59,828 bases of DNA, from positions 1 to 59,828 of the forward strand of contig JANYBS010000096.1 of NCBI GenBank assembly GCA_025360715.1, read 5' to 3'. Source of the DNA: Candidatus Eiseniibacteriota bacterium. Its GTDB lineage: Bacteria > Eisenbacteria > RBG-16-71-46. The position numbers were made by a program, and so were the translations under genes. The notes below the pieces were generated by a model. The model ran no database searches. It worked only from the letters and a program-made list of their open reading frames with translations, and was not told the DNA's origin. Positions within the stretch are counted from its first letter, which is position 1. Each line of letters starts with the position of its first letter. This document shows positions 19,998 through 47,835 of the stretch, in pieces.

Positions 19998-20822
19998 CTA
20001 CCGGTACAGGCTCTTGAGCTTGCCCCAGCTGGTCTTCTCGGCCGCCGTGGTGGAGCTGAAGTTCGTGTACTGCGTGTTCGTCCACGTCGCACGCATCGTC
20101 GACTGGAAGTTACCCGGATCCAAGCGCGCCTGCAGGTAACCACCCGCGGACGCCGGGCTCAGGATGCCCCAGAGACCATGGGGCGGGTCCTCGCCGGGGT
20201 TGCCCTGGTCGAGGGCGAACGGGCCGGCCGGGTAGTTGTTGCCGTTGTAGAACACGTTGTACTCGATCGTGCCCGGGCTCGCCGACGTGAGGCCGTTGTG
20301 GTGATAGGTCATCGTGAGCGTGATCGGCGTGTTGGCGAGGTAGTGCAGGCCACCATGCGCCGGGTCGGTCCACGAGTAGAACGGCATACGGCCACCGAAC
20401 GCCGCGATCTCACCATCGGGGATACGGCAGTTGATGCGGCCATCGGCCACGAACCACCAGGGCGCGATGTTGACGCCGGCTTCGGAGCCATTCGCATCGT
20501 TGCCGCCAAGGACCATCGTCGACGTGAAGCTGAAATCCGCCCAGTTGTCGAGCAGGGCAGCGGTCGCGCCGCCGTCCGACGAGAACTGCCACACGTGCAG
20601 GTTCGCGAAGCCGCTGCACGGCAGGAGCGTGTCGTCGATGAAGACCGTCGCCGGGTAAGCCGAGCCGTCGGTGGTGACCGTGGACGCGGGGCAATCGTTG
20701 AAGATACGCGTGATGAAATGCACGCCGTTCGGGTTGACCGAATACGCCTGAGCCGACGCGGCACCCAGCGTCAGCGTCAGCGCGAACGCGCCAACCAAGG
20801 TCTTGTAGCCGATCCGCTTCAT
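19998..20822 (-). CDS. hypothetical secreted protein (274 aa)
   Basis: Exported protein of unknown family. A clear signal peptide covers about residues 1-26 (KRIGYKTLVGAFALTLTLGAASAQA). The mature part is rich in Gly, Asn, Thr and aromatic residues with alternating beta-like pattern and two or more Cys near the N-terminal half, as in extracellular beta-sandwich proteins. It has no sorting tail. GGAGG lies just before the ATG. Its own terminator follows and a LacI-type operator (21042-21055) lies 220 bases upstream, which ties it to the glycan locus. I do not recognise a catalytic motif; a carbohydrate-binding role is only a guess. Confidence 0.7.
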   Translation of the reverse strand: MKRIGYKTLVGAFALTLTLGAASAQAYSVNPNGVHFITRIFNDCPASTVTTDGSAYPATVFIDDTLLPCSGFANLHVWQFSSDGGATAALLDNWADFSFTSTMVLGGNDANGSEAGVNIAPWWFVADGRINCRIPDGEIAAFGGRMPFYSWTDPAHGGLHYLANTPITLTMTYHHNGLTSASPGTIEYNVFYNGNNYPAGPFALDQGNPGEDPPHGLWGILSPASAGGYLQARLDPGNFQSTMRATWTNTQYTNFSSTTAAEKTSWGKLKSLYR

Positions 20823-21271: not shown

Positions 21272-24200
21272 TCACGCCCGCGCTCCGAGCAAGATCTCGA
21301 CACGGTGGTCCCGCCCGTCGTTCAGCATGGGCGCGAGCACGACTCCGCCGTGCACAAGGATCGGCGCCCCGTCGAACGTGGCGCGGATGACCGTCTCGCT
21401 GCAGCCTTCCGGATTGCGCACGACGATCGCGATGCGCTGCGTTGTACCCGGAACGCGGTACCACATCTGGTAGCCCGGCCACGCGTCGGGGATCACCGGC
21501 GCGATGCGCAGGTGATCGCCATTCACCGGCGTCACGCCAAGGACCGATTCGATCGCCACTCGCAGCATCCAGCCCGCGGAGCCCGTATACCAGGTCCAGC
21601 CGCCGCGCCCCACGTGCGGTGCCTCGCTATAGACATCGGCCGCGATCACGTAAGGCTCGGCCTGATAGCGTTCCACATCGGCGCGCGTGCGCGTGTGCGA
21701 GACCGGGCTGAGCATCTCGAGCAACGCCGCGGCGCGATCGCGGCGGCCGAGTTCGGCCATCGCGCGGACGACCCACAAGGCGGCGTGCGTGTACTGCCCG
21801 CCATTCTCGCGCACACCCGCCACGTAGCCCTTGATGTAACCGGGATCGTTCGGCGTATCGCGGAACGCCGGTGTGAGCAGGCGGATCAAGTTCTCACCGT
21901 CGCAAATGAGATGCTTCTCGACCATGTCCATGGCCTGCGCCGCGCGCGCGGCGGGTGCTGCGCCCGAGATCACGGACCACGCCTGCGCAAGCCCATCGAT
22001 GCGGCACTCGCTCGCGCTGTGCGTACCGAGCGGCGTGCCGTCATCGTAGTACGCGCGGCGGTACCACTCGCCATCCCAGCCGGCATCGCCCAGCGCCACG
22101 AGCAGCCGCTCGCGATGTGCGCGATACGTGGCGGCGCGCGCATGGTCGCCGCGGCTCTCGCACACCGGGGCGAACGCGGCCAGGATGGTGACCAGGAAGA
22201 AGCCCATCCAGACGCTTTCGCCGCGGCCCTCGCGGCCCACGCGGTTCATGCCGTCGTTCCAATCGCCGGTGCCGAAGAGCGGCAGTCCGTGCGCACCGGT
22301 GGTAAGTGAGCGATCGAGCGCCAGGACACAATGCGTGTACAGGTCCGCGTCGGCTGTGAGACGGCGCGGCTGCAGGAAGACCTCATCCTCACCGGGCTCG
22401 AGCGCGCGCGCGGCCACGAAGGTCGCGCGTTCATCGAGCACCGAGCGGTCACCCGTGGCCGCCAGATAGGTCGTGGCCAGGTACGGCAACCACAGCAGGT
22501 CGTCGGCGAAGCGCGTGCGGATGCCTTTGGAAAGCGGCGGATGCCACCAGTGCAGCACATCGCCTTCTTCGAACTGATGCGCGGCGTTGAGCAGCAGCTG
22601 CGCGCGCGTGAGTTCCGGGCGCGTGTGCATGAGCGACGCGGCGTCCTGCAACTGGTCGCGGAATCCGAACGCACCGCCGGACTGCGAGAACGCGGTGCGG
22701 CCCCAGATCCGGCAGCTGAGCGTCTGATACGCGAGCCAGCCGTTGACCATCAGGTCGAGCGCAGGCGAGGGCGTCTCGATTCGTACGCCCGAGACGATCT
22801 CGTCCCAGAACGCACGGACCTCGGCAAGCGCCGCGGCGACAGCGCCCGGTGCGCCCAAGCGCGCCACGCTGGAGCGCGCGTCGTCGTGCGTAGACGCCTC
22901 GCCGAGCAGAAAGGTGATCTCGCGGCGCTCGCCAGGCGCCAGCAGCATGCTCACGGCCTGCGCGAAGCATGCGTCGAGTCCGCCGCCCGTGCGGCCATCG
23001 AGCGGCACATTCGCGATCAGCGCAGCAGGCTCACCCACGCGGCCGGCAGCGCCGAGGAAACGCGCGCGGTCGGTGGTGGTCGAGCGAGCGGTGACCGCGC
23101 CGTCACTGATGGCAGCGGCGAAGGCGACGCCGTCGGCGAACTCGCGCGCCGCGGCGTTCGTTGCGAACAGCATCGCGGCGCCGGGATCGGCACTCGTGAC
23201 GATGCGGCGGCCGTCGTCCTCTGGTGTCACGCCCAGTACCAAGCGCTGATAGGCGGCCAGCGTGATCCGGCGCGCTTCGGCCCCTGTGTTGGTGATCGCG
23301 ACGCGCGCCAGCTTCAAGCGCTCGGCGCGCGCCACGAAGATGGTGGTCTCGTGGCCCAGTCCCGCATACGTCGAGCGAAACAGCGTCGATCCAAAACCGT
23401 GGCGCACCTCGTGGAATGCCGCGGACGCCGACGGCCCCGGCAATGGCGACCACAGCGCGCCCGTCGCATCGTCGCGCACGTAAAGCGCTTCGGCATGCGG
23501 ATCGGCAAGCGGGTCGTTGAGCCATGGCGTGAGGCGGTGTTCGCGGCTGTTGCGGCTCCAGGTGCAGCTCGCGCCGCTCTCGGTGACGAGCGTGCCGAAG
23601 GATTCGTTCGCCATCACGTTCGACCACGGCAGCGGCGGCCACCGCAGTTGCCCGCCGGCGTCGCGCGCCAACTCGATCACGTATTCGCGGCCGTCGGCGC
23701 TGAAGCCGCCGAAACCATTGGCGCACTGCAGCGCCTCGCGCGTGCCCAGCACGGTGTGGCCATTCGTCTGCGGGAGCGCGGGAGCCAGTTGCGGCGTGGG
23801 CGTCTCGGCCAGCAGTTCGGGCAATGGCCCCGTCACGATCAGACTGGCGTCGGCGAGCAATGCATCGAGGTCTGCTTCACTCAGGTCGCCCGCTGCGAGC
23901 ACGTGCAGCGCGTCGGTCTCGCCGTGCAGCACGACACTCGCCGGCAAGCGGTCGGGATCGTCGCAGAGTACGAGCGTGCTCACCGGCAGCCCGAGCGCCG
24001 ACCAGTAGCGGTGCGCAGCGATCGCGTCTTCCAGGTGCGTCAAGCCGCCAACGAGGTCGGCGCGCACGATCACCAGCGGCCGGCCGCCGCGAATACCCAC
24101 TCGCAAGCGCACCGGAGCCGCATCGCCCGCTCGCACGAGCACCGCGCTCTCCGCGCGCAGCAGCGGCGAGCCGCTGTGCACGCCGACCGCGAGAGCCTGC

Positions 24201-25141
24201 AGCATCGCCGCGCGCACGGGCGTGAGACCCAGCATCTCGAGACGTGCGTGCTCCGCCTGGGCAGCGCCAAGGAATGCCGTTTCGACCGACGAGTCGTTCG
24301 AGAACCGCGCCGAAAGCGCGAGCGCGGCGCCACGCGTAGGCGCGGCAGCGAGCACCGAGACCACGCTCACCGACCCGCCCGCAGGCACATCGACGATGCG
24401 CCGCACGCTCACGATGGGGTCAAGCACATCGCCCGTGGTGCCCGAGAGGCTGCCTCCTTCGGTCATCGCACGCGGCTCGCGCACGCTGCGGCCGCGGCCG
24501 ATGAAGCGCACACGGTCGGTCTCCCACTGCGCCACGCCCGGACCATGCAACGCATGCACCAGCCACGGATGCGTCTCATCGTGGCCGCGCGGGCGGCGGC
24601 GCGCCAACAGCGTGCCATGCGCACCGTCCGCCTCGGTCTGGATGAACAGCTTCGAGAACGCGGGATGCGAGGCATCGGCCTCCGGGTGATGCAGCACGAC
24701 CTCCGCGTAAGTCGTGACCTCGATGCGGCGCGGGCTCGCTCCCGGATTCATGAGCGTGAGGCGCCGCAACTCCACGGGCGCATCGTGCGCGATCGTGACC
24801 TCAAGGCGCGAGCGCATGCCATGGTGCTCGGTGTCGAACACGATCACGCCGACGCGCGGCTCCATGCGCGCCACCGCGCTTGCCGGCAGCGCCGGCTGCC
24901 GCGTCGCGGACCACCACTGACTGTCGGCGGTATCGCGCAGGTAGACGAAGAGCCCGTCGCAGCCCTCGACCGCATCACGACTCCAGCGGGTGAGCGCATG
25001 CTCGCCGTGCCACGAACAGCCCGTTCCGTCGGCAGTCACGAACGCATGCGCCGCGCCGAGCCCCAGCACGCCGCCCGCAGGCGTCGCGCCCGTGCGGGCG
25101 GCCCCGGTCGTGGCCGCGATGTGAAGTCGGGAGACGGTCAT
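21272..25141 (-). CDS. GH94 glycoside phosphorylase, NdvB C-terminal-like (candidate 1,2-beta-oligoglucan phosphorylase)
   Basis: 1289-residue cytosolic enzyme with no signal peptide. Two beta-supersandwich regions (starting about residues 40 and 540) precede an (alpha/alpha)6 barrel and a C-terminal beta sheet. The barrel carries GTGDWNDGMNRVG near residue 960, whose first Asp of DWND is the general acid of GH94 phosphorylases. The surrounding GRGESVWMGFF closely resembles the GH94 half of cyclic beta-1,2-glucan synthase (NdvB/ChvB), but the GT84 synthase domain is absent. This favours phosphorolysis of beta-1,2-linked oligoglucosides to glucose-1-phosphate. The ATG at 25141 follows the GH144 stop by 2 bases, so translation is coupled. 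Cellobiose or other phosphorylase activity is the alternative. Confidence 0.85.
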   Translation of the reverse strand: MTVSRLHIAATTGAARTGATPAGGVLGLGAAHAFVTADGTGCSWHGEHALTRWSRDAVEGCDGLFVYLRDTADSQWWSATRQPALPASAVARMEPRVGVIVFDTEHHGMRSRLEVTIAHDAPVELRRLTLMNPGASPRRIEVTTYAEVVLHHPEADASHPAFSKLFIQTEADGAHGTLLARRRPRGHDETHPWLVHALHGPGVAQWETDRVRFIGRGRSVREPRAMTEGGSLSGTTGDVLDPIVSVRRIVDVPAGGSVSVVSVLAAAPTRGAALALSARFSNDSSVETAFLGAAQAEHARLEMLGLTPVRAAMLQALAVGVHSGSPLLRAESAVLVRAGDAAPVRLRVGIRGGRPLVIVRADLVGGLTHLEDAIAAHRYWSALGLPVSTLVLCDDPDRLPASVVLHGETDALHVLAAGDLSEADLDALLADASLIVTGPLPELLAETPTPQLAPALPQTNGHTVLGTREALQCANGFGGFSADGREYVIELARDAGGQLRWPPLPWSNVMANESFGTLVTESGASCTWSRNSREHRLTPWLNDPLADPHAEALYVRDDATGALWSPLPGPSASAAFHEVRHGFGSTLFRSTYAGLGHETTIFVARAERLKLARVAITNTGAEARRITLAAYQRLVLGVTPEDDGRRIVTSADPGAAMLFATNAAAREFADGVAFAAAISDGAVTARSTTTDRARFLGAAGRVGEPAALIANVPLDGRTGGGLDACFAQAVSMLLAPGERREITFLLGEASTHDDARSSVARLGAPGAVAAALAEVRAFWDEIVSGVRIETPSPALDLMVNGWLAYQTLSCRIWGRTAFSQSGGAFGFRDQLQDAASLMHTRPELTRAQLLLNAAHQFEEGDVLHWWHPPLSKGIRTRFADDLLWLPYLATTYLAATGDRSVLDERATFVAARALEPGEDEVFLQPRRLTADADLYTHCVLALDRSLTTGAHGLPLFGTGDWNDGMNRVGREGRGESVWMGFFLVTILAAFAPVCESRGDHARAATYRAHRERLLVALGDAGWDGEWYRRAYYDDGTPLGTHSASECRIDGLAQAWSVISGAAPAARAAQAMDMVEKHLICDGENLIRLLTPAFRDTPNDPGYIKGYVAGVRENGGQYTHAALWVVRAMAELGRRDRAAALLEMLSPVSHTRTRADVERYQAEPYVIAADVYSEAPHVGRGGWTWYTGSAGWMLRVAIESVLGVTPVNGDHLRIAPVIPDAWPGYQMWYRVPGTTQRIAIVVRNPEGCSETVIRATFDGAPILVHGGVVLAPMLNDGRDHRVEILLGARA

Positions 25142-25143
25142 GG

Positions 25144-26763
25144 TCAGTGCAGGACCACGCAACGCTGCGTGCGCTGGACGCCGCCCATCTCCAAGCGCGC
25201 CAGGTAAACGCCATCGGGCAACCGCGCCGCGTCGAACGTCTCGCGATGGGTGCCCGCCGCGTGCTCGCCACTGGCGAGCACCGCGACCTCGCGCCCAGTC
25301 ACATCATAAACCGAGAGTCGCACGCGTCCTGCAACCGGCAGCGTGTACGCGATCGACGCCGGCCCATGCAACGGATTCGGCGACGGCACCGAGAGCATGA
25401 GCCCCGGCAGCGGATCGCGCGGGCCATCCACGCCGAGCACGTAAGGCGTGAAGCCAGCGCTGGTCAGACCGCGCTGGATGTCGGCATTGGCCATCATGCG
25501 CGTCCACACCTTGCCGGTGCGCGCGTTCTCGAGCATGAGCAGGATCGGACCCTGATCGATGCCCAGATAGTCGGTGCCGACCCACTGGAAGCCCAGATTG
25601 AAGCCGTCCTTGAATCCGTACACTCCCCACAGCGGGTTCGACGCCGGCCTCGCGTACGTGCGGTAGTTATTCCACAGGTTGCGGATGAACCGCATCGACT
25701 CCACAGGCGTGAACGGCAGCGAGCTGATGCCGGCCGTGGGCGAGATCGTGTCGTCGTCGCTCTGCGCGGGCGGCGCGCCGTGCGCCACATAACCGGAAGG
25801 GTCGTCGCTCGCCGTAAGGCCCCACAGGCTGTCGCTATAGCCCGGCATGTGATTGGGGTTCTGCGAGCAGTACTGCACCTGGGCGAGCGAGGCGCGCACC
25901 GAGTTCTGGAAGTAGTCGCTGTTCTTGCCCAGCATGTACGCGTCACGCTTGTCGCGGAAGTCCACCCAGCACGCCGGGTACTGGTGTGTGAAGAGCGGCG
26001 GGCAGTTCAGGAAGTCATAGCCGTACCACGTCTGCCACGAATATCCACTCGTCCACGCGTTCCACGCGGCGGGATTCGGCACACCGTGCGTGGGCGATCC
26101 CGAAGCGATCACGTACAGCAGCAGGCCTTCGTTGTAGCCGAGCCAGCCGTTGAAGGTGCCGAAGCCGCCCTCGGTGTTCGGCTTCCACCCCATCATGATG
26201 TAGGGGTGCAGGTTGCGCATGAAGTTCCAGTCGGCGCGATGCACGATCGAATCGGCGAACGTGCGGATCAGCGTCTCGTTCACGTCGGCGCCATCGAAGT
26301 ACTGCCGCACGTCGAGGATGCCGGCAAAGAGCAGCGCGGTGTCGATCGTCGAGAGCTCGCTGCTCCACGTGCGCGTGGCCGTGCCCATATCCAAGAAGTG
26401 ATAGAACAGCCCCTTGTTGCCGATGATGCCGGTCGACGCCGTGCCCTGCGGGCCGTTCAAGAACGTGTTGAGCGTCGTGAGCACGCGGTCACGCGCCTGC
26501 TGCCGCGTGATCCAGCCGTGGTCGGCGCCGATGCACATGGCGCTCAGGCCAAAGCCCGTCGCCGCGATGCTCGCGGGTGAGTTCACGGTGCTGCGGTCCT
26601 TCACCAGACCGTTAGCGACATTCGCCTCCACCCAGAAATAGCGGAACGCGGTGTACTGCAGGGAATCGAGGATCGCCGCATCGGGAGTCTGGGCGCGCGC
26701 AGGCGAGATCGTGACGACCAGCGCCGAAGCAAGAGCGAGAAGTAGGAGCAGGATGCGCTTCAT
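25144..26763 (-). CDS. secreted GH144-type (Glycoamylase domain, PF10091) glucanase with C-terminal sorting domain
   Basis: 539-residue exported enzyme. Signal peptide 1-24 (ending SPARA); catalytic (alpha/alpha)6 domain about 30-430; FlgD-like/type-IX-style tail about 455-539 (PSPNPLHGPASIAYTLP, VYDVTGREV, GVYLARLE). The Glycoamylase family was renamed GH144 after members proved to be endo-beta-1,2-glucanases. The conserved Glu in GYNEGLLLYVIASGSPTHG (about residue 210), HQYPACWVDFRD and DDTISPTAGISSLPFTPVES are family blocks. It is directly followed by the GH94 gene. The expected reaction is endo-cleavage of beta-1,2-glucan into sophoro-oligosaccharides outside the cytoplasm. Older annotations call such proteins glucoamylases. 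Confidence 0.85.
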   Translation of the reverse strand: MKRILLLLLALASALVVTISPARAQTPDAAILDSLQYTAFRYFWVEANVANGLVKDRSTVNSPASIAATGFGLSAMCIGADHGWITRQQARDRVLTTLNTFLNGPQGTASTGIIGNKGLFYHFLDMGTATRTWSSELSTIDTALLFAGILDVRQYFDGADVNETLIRTFADSIVHRADWNFMRNLHPYIMMGWKPNTEGGFGTFNGWLGYNEGLLLYVIASGSPTHGVPNPAAWNAWTSGYSWQTWYGYDFLNCPPLFTHQYPACWVDFRDKRDAYMLGKNSDYFQNSVRASLAQVQYCSQNPNHMPGYSDSLWGLTASDDPSGYVAHGAPPAQSDDDTISPTAGISSLPFTPVESMRFIRNLWNNYRTYARPASNPLWGVYGFKDGFNLGFQWVGTDYLGIDQGPILLMLENARTGKVWTRMMANADIQRGLTSAGFTPYVLGVDGPRDPLPGLMLSVPSPNPLHGPASIAYTLPVAGRVRLSVYDVTGREVAVLASGEHAAGTHRETFDAARLPDGVYLARLEMGGVQRTQRCVVLH

Positions 26764-26818: not shown

Positions 26819-27859
26819 TCACTGGAATGTGAGTCCCAGACTCAGCCGGTGTACATGCCCGAGCCGGCCTTCGTCGGCCCACGCGTAGTCACAGTGGTAA
26901 TGATAGACGTCGAGCTTGCCCGTGAGCCCCGCGCCAAGCGTGAGCCCGACTTCGGAGTCCTGCAGGAACAGGTTCTGCCAGCCGGCGCGCAGCGCGAGGC
27001 AGTTCTTCAGTGTGGCTTCGGCGCCAACGCTCATGCTCTCGGTGTTGTCGTTCGGATGGAACAGGTCGGCCGCCACGAGCAACTTGGTGTCGTGCGAAAG
27101 TTCGTACGGCATGCCCAGACCCACGCGGAACAGCACGGGCACCGGGAACGGATCTGTGAAACGGCTGCCCGGCAACTGGCTGTTGTCGCCATAGACCGAC
27201 GGCGTGTTGTCGTAGGTGAATCGCAGGTCCGCGCCGTTGAACGCGCCGTGGGTGCCGAAGTTCGACAGGCTCGAGCCGATCCGCAGGCCGTGATCGCTCA
27301 AGCGGTAGAGCGTACCGATGTTGAACGTGATCGTGCTCACCGAGCTGTGCCAGATATTCTCCTGCATGTAGTTCACCTGCGCGCCGGCGGCGAAGCGATA
27401 TGAGATCTGCTTGGCGTATCCCAAGCCCAGCGCGATATCCGACACGTTGTACAGCTCGCCTGTACCGAGCGGCTGGTTCACCGTGCGCACGGCGATGTCA
27501 CCCGAGTTGAGCGCCGTGAGCGTGCCGTAGAGCTGGCCCAGGCTGCCGATCGCCATCGATGCTGCCGCGTAGTCGTACGTGATACCGGCGAACCACGCGC
27601 TGTGCGTGAACGAGAGCTGGTAGCCCGTCTCACGAGCCGCCAGCGCTGGGTTGTAGTACGCCGCGCCGAGGCCTTCGTACATCGAGACACCGGCGTTGCC
27701 CATGCCGGCGATACGCGCATTCGGTTCGATCAGCAGGAACTGTCCGATGGTCGTGCCGGTATTCGTCTGCGCCGAAGCGCCACTCGCGCAGGCGAGCGCG
27801 GCGGCGGCGGCGGTGGCGATCAGGATCTTGAGTGCGTGACTTGCCATGGCGTCTCTCAT
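26819..27859 (-). CDS. PorV/PorQ family outer-membrane protein
   Basis: About 346-residue beta-barrel protein. A signal peptide ends near ASGASAQ. The opening FLLIEPNARIAGMGNAGVSMYEGLGAAYYNPALAA is the FadL-like PorV/PorQ signature, in which PorV acts as the shuttle and anchor of type IX secretion cargo. Alternating strands run to the end LSLGLTFQ. Two starts are possible: ATG 27859, 2 bases after the previous stop, and ATG 27847 with GAGAG before it. It sits between the large sorting-tail protein and the GH144 enzyme, which also carries a sorting tail, suggesting it serves export or anchoring of these neighbours. Confidence 0.82.
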   Translation of the reverse strand: MRDAMASHALKILIATAAAAALACASGASAQTNTGTTIGQFLLIEPNARIAGMGNAGVSMYEGLGAAYYNPALAARETGYQLSFTHSAWFAGITYDYAAASMAIGSLGQLYGTLTALNSGDIAVRTVNQPLGTGELYNVSDIALGLGYAKQISYRFAAGAQVNYMQENIWHSSVSTITFNIGTLYRLSDHGLRIGSSLSNFGTHGAFNGADLRFTYDNTPSVYGDNSQLPGSRFTDPFPVPVLFRVGLGMPYELSHDTKLLVAADLFHPNDNTESMSVGAEATLKNCLALRAGWQNLFLQDSEVGLTLGAGLTGKLDVYHYHCDYAWADEGRLGHVHRLSLGLTFQ

Positions 27860-27861
27860 GA

Positions 27862-30800
27862 TCACTTGATGATGGCGAACTTGCCGATGAAGGTGCCGAC
27901 TCCCGGCCCATCCACGTGGAACACGTAGAGGCCCGGCGCCACATCGAGGTTGTCCTTGGTCCGCAGGTCCCACGGCACGAAGCCGTTCGTGGACCCGTCC
28001 TGCCGCAGCGTGCGCACCAGGTCGCCGTGCACGGTGTAGATGCGGATCGTCGCCGCGAGTGGGATGTTGCGGAATTCCATCCGGCGATCGCCGCGACCGG
28101 AATCCGCGAAACGCTGCGGCTCGAACGAGGCCGCGGCCACGTAGGGATTCGGCACGACGTATGGCTTGTTGCCTGCATCGGCAAGCGCCTTGCTGGCGTC
28201 GATGTGCTCCGCGCCCGTGGTGAAGAGGAACGTGTCGCTCGCGTTGAGCGGGCGGATCACCCGCAGCTGATACGTATCGCCCAGCTTGGGCCCGACGATG
28301 GCGCCACGCGCTCCCTGCCCCAGCGTGTCCAGCTGGACACGCCACGTGGGCTGCGCCGAGAGCGGGTCCGTCGGCGAGTAGGTGACGATATCGATGAACT
28401 CATCGGCGCGGCTGAGCGTGCCGTCGTTGTCGCGGTCGCGGAACCGGCACTTGAGGCGCACGTCGCCTGCAGGGCTGTGCGCGACGATCGTGAACTTCGT
28501 GGGCTTGGGTGGGTCGAGGCCGATACGCACCGAGGTGTCACGCGGCACGTCATCGAACGCGATCGTGATGTCGTCGGGCCAGCCCGGACGACGCAGGTTC
28601 GGCGACAACCCGGCTTGTGCGGCGGCTTTCAAGAGCGTGTTCGTGATCGCGCCGGCGTTATAGCCCGAGTGCGCGGCATCAAAACGCGAGACGGAATCAC
28701 TGGTGACGACGGCGAGCAATCCCGCTGCGACCGGGCCGGTGCCGGCACCCAGGAAGTCCGTACCTGTCTTGTAGAAGCGCTGGTGAGTGGTGCTGTCGAT
28801 CAGCGAGTAGGTGGTCGCGCGCACGCTGTCCTTGTCGGGCACCGTGAACTGCACCGCGAACAGGTGACGATCGGGCACGAGCGCCGAATTCACGACCTGG
28901 ACGGCCACGGAGCCGGCGCCGTTGCCGCCGGTCTTCTGCACCGAATCCACGACTGCTGCCTCGTAGCCGCCCACCTTCGCGTTCGGCCGCACCGCCACCA
29001 CGTTCGTCGGCAGGATCGTGCCGCCGCGCGGCGTGCGGGAGACGGCGATCGAGTTCTCGCTCGGATAGAACGAGAGCGAGTCGACGCCGTTGTCGAAACC
29101 ATAGTCATAGGCGCAGACGGCGTAGTAGTACTGCTGGCCGTTTGTGACGGTGGTGTCGGTCCACGTGTGCGTGAGGCCGGTGTCGGTGCCCAGCCAATAG
29201 GCCACGCCGTTCACGGTAAGGCGCGAGTAGCCGGTCTTCTGGTCGATCACATCGAACTGCGCGATCGGCCGGCCGTTGCCCACCAAGTCGGAACCCTGGC
29301 CGTTCGTGACCAAGCGCGCATCGCGGAATTCGGGATCGGTCGCGCGATAGATGCGGTAACCCTCGAAATCCTTCTCGTGCGAGACGGGGTCGACCGACTG
29401 CTCGGCGACGTCGTCCCACGACAAGCGCACCTTGTGGTCGCCGACTTCAGCAGTCGCGGTCGGCTGCTTGGGCGGCACCGCGAACTGGTAGTTCGCGTTG
29501 TAGATCTGCTGAACCGTCTTGACCTGTGAGCGCAGTTCCGGAAGCGTCGCGCCATAGGCAAGCGCCAGGCTGAAGCGCTCCTGCTGGCCGGCGTCGAGCC
29601 GGAAGGGTCCCGAGGCGAAGAGGAACGCGATGTTGTAGTTCGATGCGAGCAGCGAATCGAAGCGCGCGGGCGCATAGGGGTTCGAGAATTTCTCAAAGAG
29701 CCGCTGCGGCCAGTTCTGTTGGTCGGTATAGAAGAGCACGCCGTCGGTCGTGGGATCCGGATTCCCCTGCCCCGACTTGATGCGGTTGAACTTGAAGCCC
29801 GTCAGGCCGATCTGGTCGGACTCGTCCTTGTCGGTCTTGTCGAAGTTCGGCTCGCCGTTCGTAGGCATGCCATCGCCTTCGCCCAGATCGTGCGTGTCGG
29901 CCACGCCGTCGGCGCCCACATCATCGGTGTCGGCGTTCCAGTCGAGGTCCTCGTCGCCCGTCCACCAGCGGCCGGCGCGATAAGCCGGACGCCTGTCGAT
30001 GGGCCCATAGAACGCCGTGAACTTGGTGGTGTCGTAGTGTGCGGCCACGTACGCGCGGATCGCATCCTTGCCGGTGATCAGGGTGCCGGGGCCGCTGCTG
30101 CGCGATTCATCGGTGATGCCATCATTGTCGTCGTCGATACCATTGGTGGAGTTGCCCGGGGTCTCGAGATACGCGTAGCCGAGGTAACCCGTCTTGGCGC
30201 AGTTGCCGCTCAAGTCCACGCCGTGGCCAAAGCGGTCGTAGGTATAGACCAGGTTGAGTCCCGAGGACTTGTCGAAGAACGCCACGTCGTCGTCGGACTC
30301 GAAGATGCCATCGCAAGAGAGCCCGGAGCCGCCCACGCCCGAGTCCATGTAGAGCCCGAAGATGATGTTGTTGTCGTAGTTGGTCGTGCCTTCGTTGGTG
30401 ATGTCGTAGTGCCAGAAGATCACATTGCCGGCCTGGGGATTGGCCCATTGGAAGCCACGCACTTCCACGCGCAGACCCAGACCGAAGCGCGACGAGTCGC
30501 GGCTGTCGGGATAGAACCGCCACGCGTCATAGAAATCATCGTCCATGACGGTGTAGCTCTCTTGATCCGCCGCAGGACGCTTGCCGAAGTACCCGTTCCA
30601 GCTCGCGGCCCAGCCCGGATCGTCGGGATCGGCGACCTTGTCCGGCCAGCTGTTCGGCCACGTGCGCGGATCATTGCTCATGGCCGGGGAGCGGCCCTTG
30701 TTGATGGTCGGGTCGGGCTGGAAGTAACCCGGGCGCGGCTCGAAGCGCATGATGCGAAAGTGCCGCGGGCTCGTGTCCTGACGCTCGCGGAAGCCCGTCT

Positions 30801-31146
30801 CCATGATGTAGGAGTCGGTACCGTCGCTCTGGCGGATCTTGGCGAGTACGAACGGCGTGATGCCGTCGCTGTAGTTCATGCCCGTGCCCTTGGGTACCTC
30901 GACCGAGTGGAACACGCTCAAATCGACATTGCCCGGGTTCGCCGGGTAGTCGCCGACCATGCCGTAGTTCCAGAAGATCGTGCGCAGGTTGTTCGCGTCG
31001 TGCGTTCCCGAGCGCTCGGCGTCAAGCGAGCCGCGCTGCGCCGGCGGCACCGTGACACTCTGCGCTCGCGCCGTGCCTGCGGCGACCAGCACCAGCAGCG
31101 TCGCGGCGGCGAGCAGCAGATGGTTCTGCGATCCCTGCACTCTCAT
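27862..31146 (-). CDS. large secreted protein with FN3-like domain, Ca-binding-type repeats and C-terminal sorting domain
   Basis: 1094-residue exported protein. Signal peptide about 1-30 (AAGTARAQ). The N-terminal 650 residues are Asp/Gly/Trp rich with calcium-binding-like stretches (NGIDDDNDGITDES near 370 and an NADTDDVGADGVADT stretch near 430) resembling thrombospondin type 3/EF-like loops. An FN3-type module lies near residues 560-690 (VRLSWDDVAEQS..GYRIYRA). The last 90 residues are a sorting-type beta domain (VVPNPYVAAASFEP..LYVFHVDGPG). No catalytic motif seen. It lies directly after the TonB receptor (40 bases) and before the PorV-like gene, where a SusD-like surface protein would sit in Bacteroidota loci. 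The upstream in-frame extension overlaps the receptor and is rejected. Confidence 0.75.
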   Translation of the reverse strand: MRVQGSQNHLLLAAATLLVLVAAGTARAQSVTVPPAQRGSLDAERSGTHDANNLRTIFWNYGMVGDYPANPGNVDLSVFHSVEVPKGTGMNYSDGITPFVLAKIRQSDGTDSYIMETGFRERQDTSPRHFRIMRFEPRPGYFQPDPTINKGRSPAMSNDPRTWPNSWPDKVADPDDPGWAASWNGYFGKRPAADQESYTVMDDDFYDAWRFYPDSRDSSRFGLGLRVEVRGFQWANPQAGNVIFWHYDITNEGTTNYDNNIIFGLYMDSGVGGSGLSCDGIFESDDDVAFFDKSSGLNLVYTYDRFGHGVDLSGNCAKTGYLGYAYLETPGNSTNGIDDDNDGITDESRSSGPGTLITGKDAIRAYVAAHYDTTKFTAFYGPIDRRPAYRAGRWWTGDEDLDWNADTDDVGADGVADTHDLGEGDGMPTNGEPNFDKTDKDESDQIGLTGFKFNRIKSGQGNPDPTTDGVLFYTDQQNWPQRLFEKFSNPYAPARFDSLLASNYNIAFLFASGPFRLDAGQQERFSLALAYGATLPELRSQVKTVQQIYNANYQFAVPPKQPTATAEVGDHKVRLSWDDVAEQSVDPVSHEKDFEGYRIYRATDPEFRDARLVTNGQGSDLVGNGRPIAQFDVIDQKTGYSRLTVNGVAYWLGTDTGLTHTWTDTTVTNGQQYYYAVCAYDYGFDNGVDSLSFYPSENSIAVSRTPRGGTILPTNVVAVRPNAKVGGYEAAVVDSVQKTGGNGAGSVAVQVVNSALVPDRHLFAVQFTVPDKDSVRATTYSLIDSTTHQRFYKTGTDFLGAGTGPVAAGLLAVVTSDSVSRFDAAHSGYNAGAITNTLLKAAAQAGLSPNLRRPGWPDDITIAFDDVPRDTSVRIGLDPPKPTKFTIVAHSPAGDVRLKCRFRDRDNDGTLSRADEFIDIVTYSPTDPLSAQPTWRVQLDTLGQGARGAIVGPKLGDTYQLRVIRPLNASDTFLFTTGAEHIDASKALADAGNKPYVVPNPYVAAASFEPQRFADSGRGDRRMEFRNIPLAATIRIYTVHGDLVRTLRQDGSTNGFVPWDLRTKDNLDVAPGLYVFHVDGPGVGTFIGKFAIIK

Positions 31147-31186
31147 GGCACTTCCCTCGTGGCGAGACAGCGTCCGCATGGGCATG

Positions 31187-33856
31187 TCAGTTCCGGGCGC
31201 TGAACGTGAGCCCGACCTCGATACGGCGCGGGCCGTAGTAACGGGTCGGGTCGTTGAGCAGTGCGCGCTGGGTGCTGGCGCCGAACGCGGTGTAGTACGG
31301 GCTATTCGTATCGTTGAAGACGAAGCCATTGAAATAGCGCGTGTCGAGTACATTGAAGACGCGGGCGAACAGCGAGCCCGTGCCCTGGCGCGTGACGAAC
31401 GAATGATCGGCGCGCAGGTCCATGAGGAACGCGTTGGGCTTGGCTCCCGAGTTCTGGGTGAGGCCGCCGCTGAACCCCGAAGTGATCGTCGGCGTGTACG
31501 GCTGACCGCTGGCCGCACGCAGGATCGTGCTGACGCTCCACTGCTTGGGCCGCGACCACATGAGCGTCATGTTGAGCGTGTGGCGTTGGTCCCAGTTGAA
31601 GGGCACCGAACGCGGCCGCGGATCCTCGCCGGCCGACGCGCGCGTCGCGGTCTCGGACGGATCGCTGGAGTTGCCCTGCGCGACCTGCCACGTGTAGTCG
31701 ATCGTGGAACTGAACAGCCCCTTGGCGCGCTGGTCGAGCGTGACGGTGAGGCCGATCACGTTGCCGAAGTCCACATTCGTGAGCCGCGCGTAGGTGGCGT
31801 CGTTGTAGGTATCGATGAACTGCACGCCAAGCAGATCACGGATGTCTTTGTAGTAGGTGCTCACATCCAGGCCCAGGTATTCGGACAGCGCCTGCTTGTA
31901 GCCGAACTGGTACTGCACCGTGCGCTCGGGCTTGATGTCGGGATTGCCCATGACGCCGAAGTTGTTCGAGCTGGCTTGGAGATTCGCCAGCTTGGAGTAG
32001 TCGGCGTTCGTGAAGATCTGGCCCAGCCCGGGGAACTGATAGAAGTGGCCGTATGCGAAGAACAACGCCGCGTTCTTGTTGATCGGGTAGGACAGGCCCA
32101 AGCGTGGCGCCAGCGAATACTTGGGATCGACCGAGCGCAGCGTGGAACGCGGCGCGCCGGCGATCGCGTTCGCGGGATTCGCCAGGTCGCTCGGCACCGT
32201 GGAGCGCGCGTCGAAATACTCGAAGCGCAGGCCGCCGCGGAACGTGAGGTCATTCCATTCGAGTTCCTGCTGCGCGAACGCCGCACCGATGAACGGCCGG
32301 TATTCCTTGACGCCCGGATACTCGGGCGCATCAATCACGCGGGTGATCGCCTGCGTGCCGTTCTGGCTGTTGAGCACCAGCGTGCCCGGAGCGCCAAAAG
32401 CCACATGCGGCGCCTGGAACTCGCCGCCGAACTTGAGCTGGCGTTCCCGACTCACTTGATCGACGAACGACGCTTTGAGGATCGCGCCGTTGGTCTTTTG
32501 ATGGAAGCGAGAGAAGTCGACGCCCTGATACCACGCGCCCAACTCGAAGTTGTCGTTGCTCTCGAGTTTGCCCGCTTGATCGTAGCGCGGGTCGTAGACG
32601 TTGTCGTACGCGAGGTCTTTATAATCCGTGTAGTTCTGCCGCACGCTCAACGTATAGAACGTCGTCTTCGAGAGCGTGTGAGTGAGATCCATGCCCTGCA
32701 CGAACGACAGCGTGTGCTGCTTGGTCTGGCCTTCGGGATCGAACCGGAACGCCCACTTGGCAGCGCGCGCGTCCGTCACGTTGAGCAGCATCTGGTAGCT
32801 CAGCTCCACGTTCGAGATCGAGCGGTTCGTGATCTTGGCGATGCCCGACCAATCGTGTGTGTAGCCCAGCGGCACATCGGCGCTGTCACCTGTCGCCCGA
32901 AGGTTGAGGGTCACCTTCGAGGTCGAATCATGCGGCACGAGCGGATCGAACCGCCGCGTCGCCCGCAGGTAGTCATCCGAAACCGAATGGCGCGCGCTCA
33001 GCAGGTAGAACGTCTTGGCCAGCGGCGCGGGTCCGCTCACGTTGACTTGGAAGTTCTGCAGCGCCGCCGGATGGATGTTGTCACTCACGATGCGATCGGC
33101 GCCCGGGAACACGTAGCCACCGCTGAAGACCTCGGCGTCCCAGTGGAACTTCTCACCGCCGCGCTTGAGTATCGCGTTCACGACACCGCTCATCGCCTGA
33201 CCGTACTCGGCGTCGAACGTGCCGCTGATGACCTGCACCTCTTCGAGCAGCGACCGGTCGAGTTTGAGCGTGGACGCATTGTTGAACGCGTTGTTCACGC
33301 TCACGCCGTCGACCTGGTACTGCACCTCGCCGGTGCGGCCGCCGCGGAAGTGTCCGTCGACGACGCCGGCTTGCAGATTCACGACGTCCTGGAGTTCCTG
33401 CACGGGGAGCGCCGCGATCTGCTCGCGCGTCACGCTCGCGATGTTGCTCGTGCGATGGATCTCGACCACCGGGCGCCGCGCGCTCACCACGACCTCGGCC
33501 ATGGCGACCGCGGTCTCGACGAGTTCGATGTCGAGGGTGGTCGTCTGGTCGGCCGAGATGTCGATGTTCTGCACCAGTGTGGGGCGGTGGCCGATCTGGC
33601 TCGCCTTCACCTGGATGCGGCCGGCGGGGATATTCACGATGGTGAAGCGGCCCTCGGCGTCGCTCGCCGCACCGAGTGGCTGCCCGACCACGATCACGTT
33701 CACGCCTTGCAGCGGCTGTTTGTGATCATCGACCACGCGGCCCGAGAGCTTGCCCGACGTGCCGGCCCAAGCGAACGCAGCCCCGGTCACGCTCAGCACG
33801 AGCATGACGAGACTTGCGAAGGCTGCCGGTCTCCATGTCCTGGTGTGGCGTTCCAT
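31187..33856 (-). CDS. TonB-dependent receptor of the glycan locus
   Basis: 889-residue outer-membrane receptor. Signal peptide about 1-32; carboxypeptidase-regulatory-like domain about 35-115 (GKLSGRVVDDHKQPLQGVNVIVV, DAEGRFTIVNIPAG); plug domain about 120-240 (LQDVVNLQAGVVDGHFRGGRTGEVQYQVDGVSVNN, YGQAMSGVVNAI); beta barrel to EVGLTFSARN. The domain order is SusC-like, but no SusD partner is encoded. It lies between the tandem-CBM9 protein and the FN3 sorting-tail protein on one strand. Expected role: TonB-powered uptake of oligosaccharides released from the glycan. The start ATG matches the signal peptide. Confidence 0.92.
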   Translation of the reverse strand: MERHTRTWRPAAFASLVMLVLSVTGAAFAWAGTSGKLSGRVVDDHKQPLQGVNVIVVGQPLGAASDAEGRFTIVNIPAGRIQVKASQIGHRPTLVQNIDISADQTTTLDIELVETAVAMAEVVVSARRPVVEIHRTSNIASVTREQIAALPVQELQDVVNLQAGVVDGHFRGGRTGEVQYQVDGVSVNNAFNNASTLKLDRSLLEEVQVISGTFDAEYGQAMSGVVNAILKRGGEKFHWDAEVFSGGYVFPGADRIVSDNIHPAALQNFQVNVSGPAPLAKTFYLLSARHSVSDDYLRATRRFDPLVPHDSTSKVTLNLRATGDSADVPLGYTHDWSGIAKITNRSISNVELSYQMLLNVTDARAAKWAFRFDPEGQTKQHTLSFVQGMDLTHTLSKTTFYTLSVRQNYTDYKDLAYDNVYDPRYDQAGKLESNDNFELGAWYQGVDFSRFHQKTNGAILKASFVDQVSRERQLKFGGEFQAPHVAFGAPGTLVLNSQNGTQAITRVIDAPEYPGVKEYRPFIGAAFAQQELEWNDLTFRGGLRFEYFDARSTVPSDLANPANAIAGAPRSTLRSVDPKYSLAPRLGLSYPINKNAALFFAYGHFYQFPGLGQIFTNADYSKLANLQASSNNFGVMGNPDIKPERTVQYQFGYKQALSEYLGLDVSTYYKDIRDLLGVQFIDTYNDATYARLTNVDFGNVIGLTVTLDQRAKGLFSSTIDYTWQVAQGNSSDPSETATRASAGEDPRPRSVPFNWDQRHTLNMTLMWSRPKQWSVSTILRAASGQPYTPTITSGFSGGLTQNSGAKPNAFLMDLRADHSFVTRQGTGSLFARVFNVLDTRYFNGFVFNDTNSPYYTAFGASTQRALLNDPTRYYGPRRIEVGLTFSARN

Positions 33857-36040: not shown

Positions 36041-37153
36041 TCAGCTCACGCGACCGCGGTCGCGCCCTGCGGCCTCGCGGCCGTCCTCCTCTCGTCGCGC
36101 GGCCGCGGCGAGGGGCCGATGACGGCGAGGCTGCGCCGCATCGGACGTGGGTACGAGCGCGGCGCCGCACGACGCGCGCACGATCAATCTTGTCGGCACC
36201 GACACGCGCTCGGCCGGCACGGGCTGGCGCGCCTGCGCGTGCGGGAGCAGCATGCCCACGGCGCGCTCGCCCAGTTCATAGGCGTCGGCGCGCACGGTGG
36301 TGAGCTGCGGCGTCAGGTAACGGCCGATGGCGATATCGTCGAAGCCCGTGACTGCCATCTCCTCGGGTACACGCACGCCGGTATCGCGCAGCGCGGTCAC
36401 CATGCCAATCGCCATGGCGTCATTCGCGCAGAAGATCGCGGTCGGACGCGGCTCGATCGCGAGCAGGTCCGGCACGCACGCGGCGCCGCATTCCTCGCTG
36501 AAATCGCCGGCAAGCTCGAGCGCCGCATCCTGCATGAGGCCGGCCTCCGTGAGCGCGGCCCGATAGCCGCGCAGGCGTTCCTCGGCATCGACGTTGCCGG
36601 CAGGCCCGCAGAGCATGGCGATACGGCGGTGGCCCAGGGCGACGAGGTGGCGTGTCATCGCGAGTGCGCCATCGTGGTTCGCGATCGCCAGGGTGGCGCA
36701 CGCCAAGGTGTCGGGGCCCGAATGGATGAGCACCACGGGCAGGCTGGACGCGATCGACTCCACCACTCGCGCGGAGCCCGCATCGGGCGAGAGTACGAGC
36801 AGGCCATCGATGCGTCCGCGCAGCGCCCGCACCGCAGAGTTGAGCGCGTCGGCGTCGGCGTGCGAGCTGGAGAGCAGGATCTGGAAGCGTTCGCGGCGTG
36901 CGGCCAGGTCGATGCCGCGGATGACCTCGGAGAAGAACTCGCCGTGGAGGTCGGGAAGCACCACTCCCAGCGCGAGCGTGCGGCTGGTGATCAGGCTGCG
37001 GGCTGCACCGTTGGGCCAGTAGTCGAGCCGCGCGGCGACCTCGCGCACATTCTCACAGGTCTCTGGGCGCACCAGCGCGCTCTGGTTGAAGACGCGCGAG
37101 ACGGTCGCGATCGAGACCCCAGCTTCACGTGCGACGTCCCGGATGGTGGCCAT
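36041..37153 (-). CDS. LacI-family transcriptional regulator (LacI-1)
   Basis: 370-residue repressor/activator. The N-terminal helix-turn-helix and hinge (ATIRDVAREAGVSIATVSRVFNQ) is followed by a periplasmic-binding-protein-like sensor domain (LALGVVLPDLHGEFFSEVIRG to TVRADAYELGERAVGMLL) and a basic, low-complexity end. The DNA-reading helix is identical to that of LacI-2 (46708-47769), with which it shares most of the first 85 residues. The start at 37153 is the family-standard MATIRDVA; longer frames run through the operator region. Two operators lie 80-117 bases upstream, so it is probably autoregulated. It likely controls the minus-strand glycan operon below it and the divergent GH1 gene. 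Confidence 0.93.
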   Translation of the reverse strand: MATIRDVAREAGVSIATVSRVFNQSALVRPETCENVREVAARLDYWPNGAARSLITSRTLALGVVLPDLHGEFFSEVIRGIDLAARRERFQILLSSSHADADALNSAVRALRGRIDGLLVLSPDAGSARVVESIASSLPVVLIHSGPDTLACATLAIANHDGALAMTRHLVALGHRRIAMLCGPAGNVDAEERLRGYRAALTEAGLMQDAALELAGDFSEECGAACVPDLLAIEPRPTAIFCANDAMAIGMVTALRDTGVRVPEEMAVTGFDDIAIGRYLTPQLTTVRADAYELGERAVGMLLPHAQARQPVPAERVSVPTRLIVRASCGAALVPTSDAAQPRRHRPLAAAARREEDGREAAGRDRGRVS

Positions 37154-37231
37154 GCTCGGCTCCGATGCAGGCGATGCGAGGGGGATGGAGCGGGTCGAAG
37201 GGCTTTGCACTGTGCGCTCGCGAGAGCGCGA

Positions 37232-37245
37232 TGTATACGCTTTCA
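37232..37245. promoter_or_regulatory. second, weaker LacI-type operator TGTATACGCTTTCA
   Basis: TGTATACGCTTTCA fits the general LacI-family pattern TGTANNCGNTTNCA and lies 24 bases from the stronger site, between LacI-1 and the GH1 gene. The spacing would put both sites on nearly the same face of the helix. Confidence 0.5.
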
Positions 37246-37255
37246 CGCGTTTGGA

Positions 37256-37269: not shown

Positions 37270-37537
37270 TGGACATCAGCCTCTTGTCAAAGACTCACTT
37301 GTAGACGTCCTCGCGCGCATCGGATCTGCTCGGGATCCCGGCCTGCCATAGCACTTAGCTGCCATGTTCACAGACGTTTACTGAAACACGGACACGTAGC
37401 CATCGAACGCCTTGGGAACCGCTCTCGCGGCTCGGCGATGGACGCGAGCCGCGCACATCGCTATGTTCCCGCACCGCTTGCCGTGGAGCCCCAACTCCGA
37501 CGGCCATCATGAGTACCTCCCGCTGGAATGGAGTCCC

Positions 37538-38890
37538 ATGGCCGCCGCCTCGCGCTTTCCCGATGGCTTCCTCTGGGGCGCTGCAACCTCTGCTTACCAG
37601 ATCGAAGGCTCGCCGCTCGCCGATGGCTCGGGCGCCAGCATCTGGCATCGCTTCGTGCACTCCCCCGGCCGCACCTTCCAAGGCCAGCATGCCGACCTGG
37701 CCTGCGACCACTACCGTCGCTGGGAATCCGACGTGGACCTGATGCAGGCGCTGGGGCTGCAGGCCTACCGCTTCAGCATCGCGTGGGGGCGCGTGCTGCC
37801 GGAAGGCCGCGGCCGCGTGAACGGCAAGGGGCTGGACTTTTACAAGCGCCTGATCGACCGGCTGCTCGAGCGCAGCATCACGCCCAACGTCACGCTGTAC
37901 CACTGGGACCTGCCCGCCGCGCTCGATGACCGCGGCGGCTGGCTCAATCCCGATATCGAGCACTGGTTCACGGAATACGCGCAGGTGATGTTCCATGCGT
38001 TCGGCGATCGCGTGCCGATGTGGGCCACGCTCAACGAACCGTGGGTCGCGGTCGATGGCGGCTATCTGCATGGCGTGAATGCGCCCGGGCACGCGAACCT
38101 GTTCGAGGCCCCGATCGCCGCGCATCACCTGATGCTCTCGCACGCTTCGGCCGTGCGCGCCTACCGCGCCGGCGGCTGGCCGCATCAGATCGGCCTGGTG
38201 GTGAACCTGGAGCCCAAGGATCCCGCCAGTGACTCACCCGAGGACCTGGCGGCCACGGCCCGCGCGCACACGTACTTCAACGAGCAGTATCTGGACCCTG
38301 TCTTCTTCGGGCGTCACCCCGAGGGTCTGGCCCGCATCTACGGCGCCGGCTGGCCGGATTTCGCCGCGTCCGAGGTGGCGCGCATCCAGGAGAAGATCGA
38401 CTTCCTGGGCATCAACTACTACACGCGGGCGCTCACCAAGGACGATCCCACGCGGCCGCCCGTGCGCGACGCGCGGGTCGTGCCCGAAGGCGCGACGGTG
38501 ATGACCACCGGCTGGGAGTTGTATCCCAAGGGCCTCGAGGAGGTCCTCGTCTGGGTCAAGGAACGCTATGGGGATACACCGCTCTACATCACCGAGAACG
38601 GCGGCGCCTACGAAGACCCCGAGGCACCTGTGGATGGCCGCATCGACGATCCGCTGCGCGTGCTCACATATCGCGGCAACCTGCGCGCCTGCCGTGATGC
38701 GATCGCGCGTGGCGTCGACCTGCGCGGCTTCTTCGCATGGTCCTTCATGGACAACTTCGAATGGAGCTCGGGCTTCTCGAAGCGCTTCGGCCTGGTGCAC
38801 GTGGACTACGCCACGCAGCAGCGCACCATCAAGGCGAGCGGCGAGTTCTACCGCGACGTGATCCGGACGAACGGCGAAGCACTGGGGTAG
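37538..38890 (+). CDS. GH1 family beta-glucosidase
   Basis: 450-residue glycoside hydrolase of family 1, the usual length for bacterial beta-glucosidases. The N-terminal signature FPDGFLWGAATSAYQIEG is intact. The acid/base is Glu167 in TLNEPW and the nucleophile Glu353 in YITENGG; the +/-1 site Trp/Glu region WSFMDNFEW and the YHWDLP segment are also present. No signal peptide, so it acts in the cytosol. It would release glucose from sophorose or short oligosaccharides delivered by the ABC importer, although GH1 enzymes accept many beta-linkages. The ATG at 37538 starts the family N-terminus; more upstream ATGs are less likely. Divergent from LacI-1 with shared operators. Confidence 0.95.
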   Translation: MAAASRFPDGFLWGAATSAYQIEGSPLADGSGASIWHRFVHSPGRTFQGQHADLACDHYRRWESDVDLMQALGLQAYRFSIAWGRVLPEGRGRVNGKGLDFYKRLIDRLLERSITPNVTLYHWDLPAALDDRGGWLNPDIEHWFTEYAQVMFHAFGDRVPMWATLNEPWVAVDGGYLHGVNAPGHANLFEAPIAAHHLMLSHASAVRAYRAGGWPHQIGLVVNLEPKDPASDSPEDLAATARAHTYFNEQYLDPVFFGRHPEGLARIYGAGWPDFAASEVARIQEKIDFLGINYYTRALTKDDPTRPPVRDARVVPEGATVMTTGWELYPKGLEEVLVWVKERYGDTPLYITENGGAYEDPEAPVDGRIDDPLRVLTYRGNLRACRDAIARGVDLRGFFAWSFMDNFEWSSGFSKRFGLVHVDYATQQRTIKASGEFYRDVIRTNGEALG

Positions 38891-38913
38891 CCGCCGCGCG
38901 GATCAGCGGCGGC
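38890..38913. terminator. hairpin between convergent GH1 and six-hairpin enzyme genes
   Basis: GCCGCCGC (38890-38897) pairs with GCGGCGGC (38906-38913). The 12-base gap between the two convergent stops lies within it. No T-tract; it may act as a bidirectional stop. Confidence 0.35.
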
Positions 38914-42127: not shown

Positions 42128-42945
42128 CCCTTCACACTCCCCATGAGCACGCCTTGGATGTAGGAGCGCTGCATCACCAGGAACACGATCAGCACGGGCA
42201 ACACCGTGAGCACGCTGCCGGCCATCATGAGTTCGGTGTCCTGCACGTGCTCGCCCACCAGATTGGCGAGCGCCACGGGCAGCGTGTACTTGGCGTCATC
42301 CGACAGCACGATGAGCGGCCACATGAAGTCGTTCCACGCCGACAGGAAGCTGAACGTGGCCATGGTGACCAGGATCGGCTTGAGCACCGGCAGCACGATG
42401 GTCCAGAAGATGCGGAACTCACTCGCGCCATCGATGCGCGCGGCGTCGAGCAGGTCATCGGGGATCGACAGAGCGAACTGGCGGATCATGAAGATGCCGA
42501 AGATGCTCGCGAGCCCGGGGATCATGACGCCCCACGGCGTGTTGACCAGGCCAAGGCCTTTGACCATGAGGAACAACGGCATCATGCCGACCTGCGACGG
42601 GATCACGAGCGCGGCCATGAGCACCCGGAACAGCTGGTCGCGCGCGCCAAAGCGCAACTTGGCGAACGCATAGCCCGCCATGGCGTTCACGACCACCGAG
42701 ATCACGGTCACCGTGACGGTGATGAATAGCGAGTTGCCGAAGTCGCGCGCCAGATGGAGTCGCGTGAACAAGTCGATGTAGTGCGCGAACGTGGGGTGCA
42801 TCGGCAGGATCGGTGGCGGAACGGTGTTCGCGCCGCCCGTGGGCATGAACGACGCCGACACCATCCATAACAAGGGCGTGAGCGTGAGCGCAGCGCCGAA
42901 GAGCAACAGCGCGTGGACGAGGATCGATCGCCATGCCTTCTTCAT
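42124..42945 (-). CDS. carbohydrate ABC transporter permease (MalG-like)
   Basis: 273-residue inner-membrane permease of the CUT1 sugar importer class. About six membrane helices; the cytoplasmic EAA loop reads DAARIDGASEFRIFWTIVLPVLKP, which contacts the ATPase. The start ATG overlaps the upstream permease stop (ATGA), and its stop overlaps the start of the six-hairpin enzyme gene in the same way. It pairs with the MalF-like protein at 42942-43844 and the lipoprotein at 43841-45145. No ATPase gene is present nearby. Confidence 0.93.
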   Translation of the reverse strand: MKKAWRSILVHALLLFGAALTLTPLLWMVSASFMPTGGANTVPPPILPMHPTFAHYIDLFTRLHLARDFGNSLFITVTVTVISVVVNAMAGYAFAKLRFGARDQLFRVLMAALVIPSQVGMMPLFLMVKGLGLVNTPWGVMIPGLASIFGIFMIRQFALSIPDDLLDAARIDGASEFRIFWTIVLPVLKPILVTMATFSFLSAWNDFMWPLIVLSDDAKYTLPVALANLVGEHVQDTELMMAGSVLTVLPVLIVFLVMQRSYIQGVLMGSVKG

Positions 42946-47769: not shown

Positions 47770-47835
47770 GGTCCTCCGCATCGAGAGTGCTGCGCGACAA
47801 GCTGTGCACGCGGCACAGACAGGGCGAGTATCGTA

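Follow-up and report, generated by a model that had tools for sequence, protein, structure and literature searches.

A free-standing phosphorylase of glycoside hydrolase family 94 (GH94) in a bacterium of the candidate phylum Eiseniibacteriota probably represents a module of NdvB that lost its synthase partner and was redeployed for the breakdown of beta-1,2-glucan beside glucanases of family GH144. NdvB, or Cgs, is the giant enzyme that builds cyclic beta-1,2-glucan. The gene lies in a 59,828-nucleotide stretch of Candidatus Eiseniibacteriota bacterium (assembly GCA_025360715.1, contig JANYBS010000096.1), hereafter the window, which is the entire contig (C138), and it directly follows the gene of a protein with a Glycoamylase domain (PF10091), here called GlyA1. 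The initial annotation had placed these two genes 2 bases apart and had read them as parts of NdvB redeployed or retained for breakdown; the junction is indeed TGA-CC-ATG, and the notion of an 'NdvB without synthase' turns out to be half right, in that one NdvB module would have been redeployed for catabolism beside unrelated glucanases.

Domain composition and structural affinity of the GH94 protein

The 1289-aa protein consists of GH94 domains only. Pfam recognises PF06165 in two stretches together with PF17167 (2e-115), the supersandwich and catalytic domains score above the curated cut-off, and the catalytic Asp is present as D963. In the alignment this residue is the equivalent of D2528, the catalytic Asp of Cgs (PMC11842490), and the surrounding GDWNDGM is unvarying across 12 stand-alone and 53 NdvB rows. 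Among solved structures the best match is Agrobacterium Cgs with 859 bits, as against 265 bits at most for cellobiose and chitobiose phosphorylases and 154 bits for the cellobionate phosphorylase 4zle; LpSOGP (5h3z) gave no match at E<=0.001 in this search, and the protein lies outside the sequence group of LiSOGP and LpSOGP.

The length of the protein is about that of the whole C-terminal region of Cgs, and the alignment runs through the Rossmann-fold-like (RFL) subdomain. Cryo-electron microscopy of Cgs distinguished three GH94 subdomains, all of which also occur in LpSOGP, and an RFL inserted between GP1 and GP2, which contacts the N-terminal domain of the synthase and is lacking in LpSOGP (PMC10901819). 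An AlphaFold model covering residues 15-475 (predicted local distance difference test, pLDDT, 83) aligns with three Cgs entries over 458-463 columns at template-modelling (TM) scores of 0.81-0.84, whereas other GH94 structures reach at most 0.56 (LpSOGP: 263 columns, 0.47). The protein is of the NdvB type and not of the LiSOGP/LpSOGP type. The NdvB likeness noticed in the initial annotation is thus borne out by the match to Cgs, the retained RFL, the unmatched LpSOGP and the grouping with full-length NdvBs described below, and the comparison of a predicted structure with Cgs and SOGP that it had envisaged likewise gives, for residues 15-475, a Cgs-type fold, RFL included.

Origin of the free-standing module

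In a tree of 69 rows the window protein is one of 18 stand-alone proteins that form a clade with support 100; its members come from the window's phylum and from Pseudomonadota (e.g. Duganella, Pseudoduganella and Competibacteraceae). A careful tree, built without the RFL columns, joins this clade to the full-length NdvBs of Rubricoccaceae, Aliifodinibius and Mongoliitalea (support 98/91), which represent Bacteroidota/Balneolota/Rhodothermota. SOGPs and cellobiose phosphorylases have very long branches as outgroup, and the root was therefore set with two short GH94s from relatives (L117 1348-3813 and L118 1384-4050), which are ~820-890 aa long, lack GP1 and RFL, and score between Cgs and cellobiose phosphorylases.

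Two further stand-alone GH94s, one from Rhizobium sophorae (L039) and one from Rhodanobacter (L056), are placed elsewhere among the NdvBs, and a single origin for all NdvB-type stand-alone GH94s is rejected by the approximately unbiased (AU) test (p 1e-50). We infer that release of GH94 from the synthase happened at least three times. Since R. sophorae encodes, besides L039, a complete NdvB as well as a true SOGP (L153, 610 bits to LpSOGP 5h3z), these lineages are distinct; the three kinds of GH94 in this species are L039 (the NdvB-type stand-alone), L144 and L153. Its NdvB-type stand-alone gene lies 6 bases upstream of a GH144-type gene. In two other loci (L163, L159) the glucanase looks fused in frame to GH94, but the upstream stretch is another frame across the glucanase gene, and a fusion was discarded.

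Release from the synthase removes the docking partner of RFL, so that this subdomain would be expected to drift. At matched divergence of the catalytic part, the ratio of RFL to GP1 identity is 0.59 in the stand-alone clade versus 0.83 in NdvBs, and RFL measures 147-171 aa in the former versus 175-213 aa in the latter. On a fixed tree the length ratio of the clade to the rest is 0.86 for RFL, 0.49 for GP1 and 0.29 for GP2-3, the RFL ratio exceeding that of GP1 in 60/60 column bootstraps. The RFL tips of the independently placed R. sophorae and Rhodanobacter proteins reach 1.17 and 1.36 versus an NdvB tip median of 0.49, and most of RFL is gone in three clade members (L030, L069 and L081). The RFL of the window's clade is best explained as a decaying remnant of a synthase-docking piece.

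Did the free phosphorylase come out of NdvB, or did NdvB come out of a free phosphorylase? Several observations weigh against release: monophyly of all NdvBs against the clade survives the AU test (p 0.18; p 0.096), the root depends on the two short GH94s, and the rapid evolution of RFL could instead mean that it has acquired a new role. The first of these is what would be expected if a catabolic, RFL-bearing phosphorylase had been the ancestral sister and NdvB had formed later by its fusion to GT84 and GH189. This scenario fares best among the alternatives, but we regard it as unlikely: the favoured tree draws three NdvBs from other phyla to the clade, the decay or loss within the clade of RFL, the subdomain that touches the synthase in Cgs, is what a released part should show, and two other stand-alone proteins clearly derive from among the NdvBs. 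Of the phylogeny proposed in the initial annotation, the grouping with NdvBs is recovered, and a sister position also survives; branching inside NdvB is favoured, though unproved because NdvB monophyly passes the test. Release from NdvB remains our preferred reading, and, somewhat less firmly, we lean towards the view that the length-control phosphorylase of Cgs was freed on three or more occasions, always next to a glucanase of GH144 type, and that the free-standing beta-1,2-glucan phosphorylases so formed are a class of their own; in the window's clade RFL would then be a vestige in mid-decay, here kept, there shortened or lost.

Distribution, genomic context and function

No GT84 gene was found in the window. 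The corresponding statement of the initial annotation holds for this stretch but not for the genome, where a PF10091 domain is divided between two contigs: its first half is encoded, with a glycosyltransferase region, at the end of contig C142, and its second half on contig C109, together with two supersandwiches and the start of a GH94. The two contig ends share an overlap of exactly 141 bp, as expected for one gene split at the assembly k-mer. The organism therefore also has a full NdvB/Cgs, and absence of the synthase from the organism is rejected.

Beyond the GlyA1-GH94 pair, the window holds a second PF10091 gene (GlyA2) and, at 36-48 kb, an operon with transporter and GH1 genes, neither of which figured in the initial annotation. 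A glucanase, an importer (binding protein and permeases), a beta-glucosidase and a phosphorylase thus occur together, the combination by which a beta-1,2-glucan utilisation cluster is recognised. In Duganella and Pseudoduganella the glucanase, binding protein, permeases, 1074-aa protein (see Table 1), GH1 and GH94 form a single run. Both blocks of the window are contiguous in the relatives L159 and L162, in the order PorV-like gene, GlyA1, GH94, (LacI,) GlyA2, binding protein, permeases and 1074-aa protein.

Across 47 genomes of the phylum, with kinship ignored, the free-standing GH94 goes with GH144 (18/20 versus 0/27, p 4e-11) and with GH1 (p 5e-8), while NdvB shows no association with either (p 0.52 and p 0.34, respectively). 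One contig of genome G033 (C276), considered as a stand-alone GH94, proved to be NdvB; the genome is still counted as free-standing through its short GH94, and the two main p-values are unchanged. The status 'free-standing without NdvB' is wrong for this genome and doubtful for G035 and G018. In a sister species the short GH94 of L118 fills the slot between GlyA1 and the conserved following gene, and that of L117 stands beside GH1; some relatives seem to have swapped one phosphorylase for another at the same position.

The free enzyme could still serve synthesis, trimming or turning over the product of the cell's own NdvB, which is present in the window's genome; Duganella, Pseudoduganella, Rhodanobacter and R. 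sophorae likewise have both genes. We consider such a role quite unlikely, as the stand-alone gene occurs without NdvB in a genome that is 99% complete (G021), six genomes with only NdvB have neither the stand-alone gene nor GH144 glucanases nor GH1, and the stand-alone gene is linked to importer genes. It is less likely again that the enzyme acts on cellobiose, cellobionate or laminaribiose and resembles NdvB by ancestry only. Several linkages are covered within GH94, and XCC4077 is a cellobionic acid phosphorylase despite bearing the name NdvB (PMC8950772); against this stand the low score of the cellobionate phosphorylase structure compared with Cgs, the two neighbours of beta-1,2-glucanase type and the conservation of the gene set.

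The GH144 partners

GlyA1 matches PF10091 (5e-69) and Por_Secre_tail, and its tail scores above the cut-off of TIGR04183, a type-9-secretion-like model. Together with a signal peptide recognised by inspection, this agrees with the secretion proposed in the initial annotation. Both GlyA1 and GlyA2 match GH144 enzymes across their catalytic domains; the clan-defining Glu, Phe and Tyr given in PMC12102758, where XcSGL is classed as GH144, are conserved in both, and an acidic residue occupies the position of the base. In the tree of PF10091 domains they stand on the glucanase (GH144) side, grouped with XcSGL, and all NdvB (GH189) domains stand opposite (support 100). By family placement and key residues, both are predicted GH144 endo-beta-1,2-glucanases and not GH189 enzymes.

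The same tree rules out GlyA1 as a GH189 relic of NdvB; the pair is therefore not a decomposed NdvB, and only its GH94 part belongs to the NdvB lineage. That an NdvB lost its GT84 and had its glycosylase-type and GH94 parts separated into two genes is accordingly next to untenable, even though the two adjacent genes carry the same Pfam families as NdvB and the GH94 is of its type, since GlyA1 sides with GH144, bears a signal peptide and a tail of type-9 secretion system (T9SS) type while Cgs keeps its soluble domains in the cytoplasm (PMC10901819), and is replaced by a GlyA2-type glucanase in the Duganella clusters. Of the proposal that NdvB parts were redeployed, the GH94 half stands, within a breakdown cluster, and the GlyA1 half falls.

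A third GH144-type glucanase, closer to PDB 4gl3, is encoded elsewhere in the window's genome (L093 11880-13460, contig C57). In a Rhodospirillales cluster a 545-aa protein with PF10091 and DUF3131 (L081 12825-14462) lies beside GH1; BLAST places it nearer the middle domain of NdvB than GH144. In a Gemmatimonadetes metagenome-assembled genome (L028) a single 12-kb contig encodes both a GH144-type glucanase and a full-length NdvB.

Features of the locus

Table 1. Genes and protein regions of the beta-1,2-glucan locus in the window.
Feature	Position	Strand	Basis and remarks
274-aa exported-looking protein, no Pfam match	19998..20822	-	directly after GH94 in relatives, 42-58% identity
Stand-alone GH94 phosphorylase, NdvB/Cgs C-terminal type	21272..25141	-	Pfam, PDB matches, Cgs alignment, tree; ORF (open reading frame) 21272-25162, ATG at 25141, 1289 aa
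GP2-GP3 (second supersandwich and catalytic domain), residues 471-1286	21284..23731	-	PF06165, PF17167
Catalytic motif GTGDWNDGMN, residues 957-966	22244..22273	-	alignments
RFL subdomain, residues ~300-455	23777..24244	-	Cgs alignment, predicted structure; PMC10901819
GP1 (first supersandwich), residues 21-299	24245..25081	-	PF06165, Cgs alignment
GlyA1, predicted secreted GH144-type endo-beta-1,2-glucanase with C-terminal T9SS-type sorting domain	25144..26763	-	profile matches, PF10091 tree; 539 aa, ATG start
PorV-like outer-membrane protein	26819..28345	-	by sequence inspection; true start inside ORF; conserved directly upstream of GlyA1
Large protein, no Pfam match	27862..31518	-	conserved between TonB receptor and PorV-like gene
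TonB-dependent receptor	31187..33856	-	upstream of GlyA1-GH94 in relatives too
Second LacI-family regulator	36041..37246	-	
GH1 beta-glucosidase	37412..38890	+	
1074-aa exported protein with F5/8 type C domain and GH15/GH94-like (alpha/alpha)6 fold	38903..42127	-	conserved in cluster
ATP-binding cassette (ABC) permease 2 (BPD_transp_1 at residues 260-430)	42124..43455	-	start probably near 42966
ABC permease 1 (BPD_transp_1)	42942..44006	-	ORF 5' end overlaps binding-protein gene
ABC sugar-binding protein (SBP_bac_1)	43841..45145	-	
GlyA2, predicted exported GH144 glucanase, XcSGL (XCC2207) group	45142..46704	-	matches, PF10091 tree
LacI-family regulator	46708..47781	-	

The 1074-aa protein has GH15, GH94 and GH65 structures as Foldseek neighbours and no catalytic Pfam match. 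Duganella, Competibacteraceae and Rhodospirillales encode counterparts in their beta-1,2-glucan clusters that are 41-47% identical to it; it is a candidate for an unclassified glycoside hydrolase. Directly beyond the cluster lie genes for an efflux pump of the resistance-nodulation-division type (AcrB-like) and a HlyD-type adaptor (15421-19706, minus strand).

Proposed pathway

From domain content, catalytic residues, retention and acceleration of RFL, GH144 placement, synteny and co-occurrence, all directly visible in the sequences, we infer the activity, substrate, localisation and reaction direction of the GH94 protein. GlyA1, with its T9SS-like tail, and the exported GlyA2 would cleave beta-1,2-glucan outside the inner membrane, and the TonB receptor, the ABC binding protein and the permeases would import the resulting beta-1,2-gluco-oligosaccharides. 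In the cytosol the GH94 protein would release glucose 1-phosphate from their non-reducing end by phosphorolysis, the remaining sophorose would be converted to glucose by GH1, and the LacI proteins may control the cluster. The RFL, a synthase-docking element in Cgs, would have lost its partner and be decaying.

If so, one shared module connects the synthesis and the breakdown of beta-1,2-glucan, a polymer that acts as a symbiosis and virulence factor. The window protein would offer the Cgs phosphorylase as the soluble product of a single gene, open to study apart from the membrane synthase, and the contrast between RFL-bearing and RFL-less members a direct handle on the role of RFL. It would also constitute a second, non-SOGP lineage to seek when predicting beta-1,2-glucan-consuming bacteria. 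Our search of the literature open without subscription found no report on free-standing NdvB-type GH94 proteins. An import and breakdown path of this kind has been proposed for the Listeria (PMC3960220) and Streptomyces (PMC12369401) clusters.

Comparison with known systems

The closest relative by sequence and structure is Agrobacterium Cgs, with which the window protein shares the GP1-RFL-GP2-GP3 architecture and the catalytic Asp. It differs in being free, without GT84, membrane part or GH189, in its shorter and fast-evolving RFL, and in the location of its gene in a breakdown cluster. With LiSOGP and LpSOGP it has in common that it is a free-standing GH94 without signal peptide, but these belong to a separate GH94 lineage that lacks RFL, and LpSOGP went unmatched. 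The Listeria SOGP cluster likewise comprises an ABC importer, a beta-glucosidase and a LacI regulator (PMC3960220), its beta-glucosidase being of family GH3 where the window has GH1. The GH144 enzymes CpSGL and XcSGL are matched end-to-end by GlyA1 and GlyA2, with conserved clan residues; GlyA1 differs from them in its T9SS-type tail and its pairing with a GH94 gene. Finally, SGR_2422-2427 of Streptomyces griseus also brings together an ABC importer, GH1 and an enzyme of the beta-1,2-glucanase clan (PMC12369401), though this enzyme is of GH193 rather than GH144, and the window's cluster adds the GH94 phosphorylase and the 1074-aa hydrolase-like protein.

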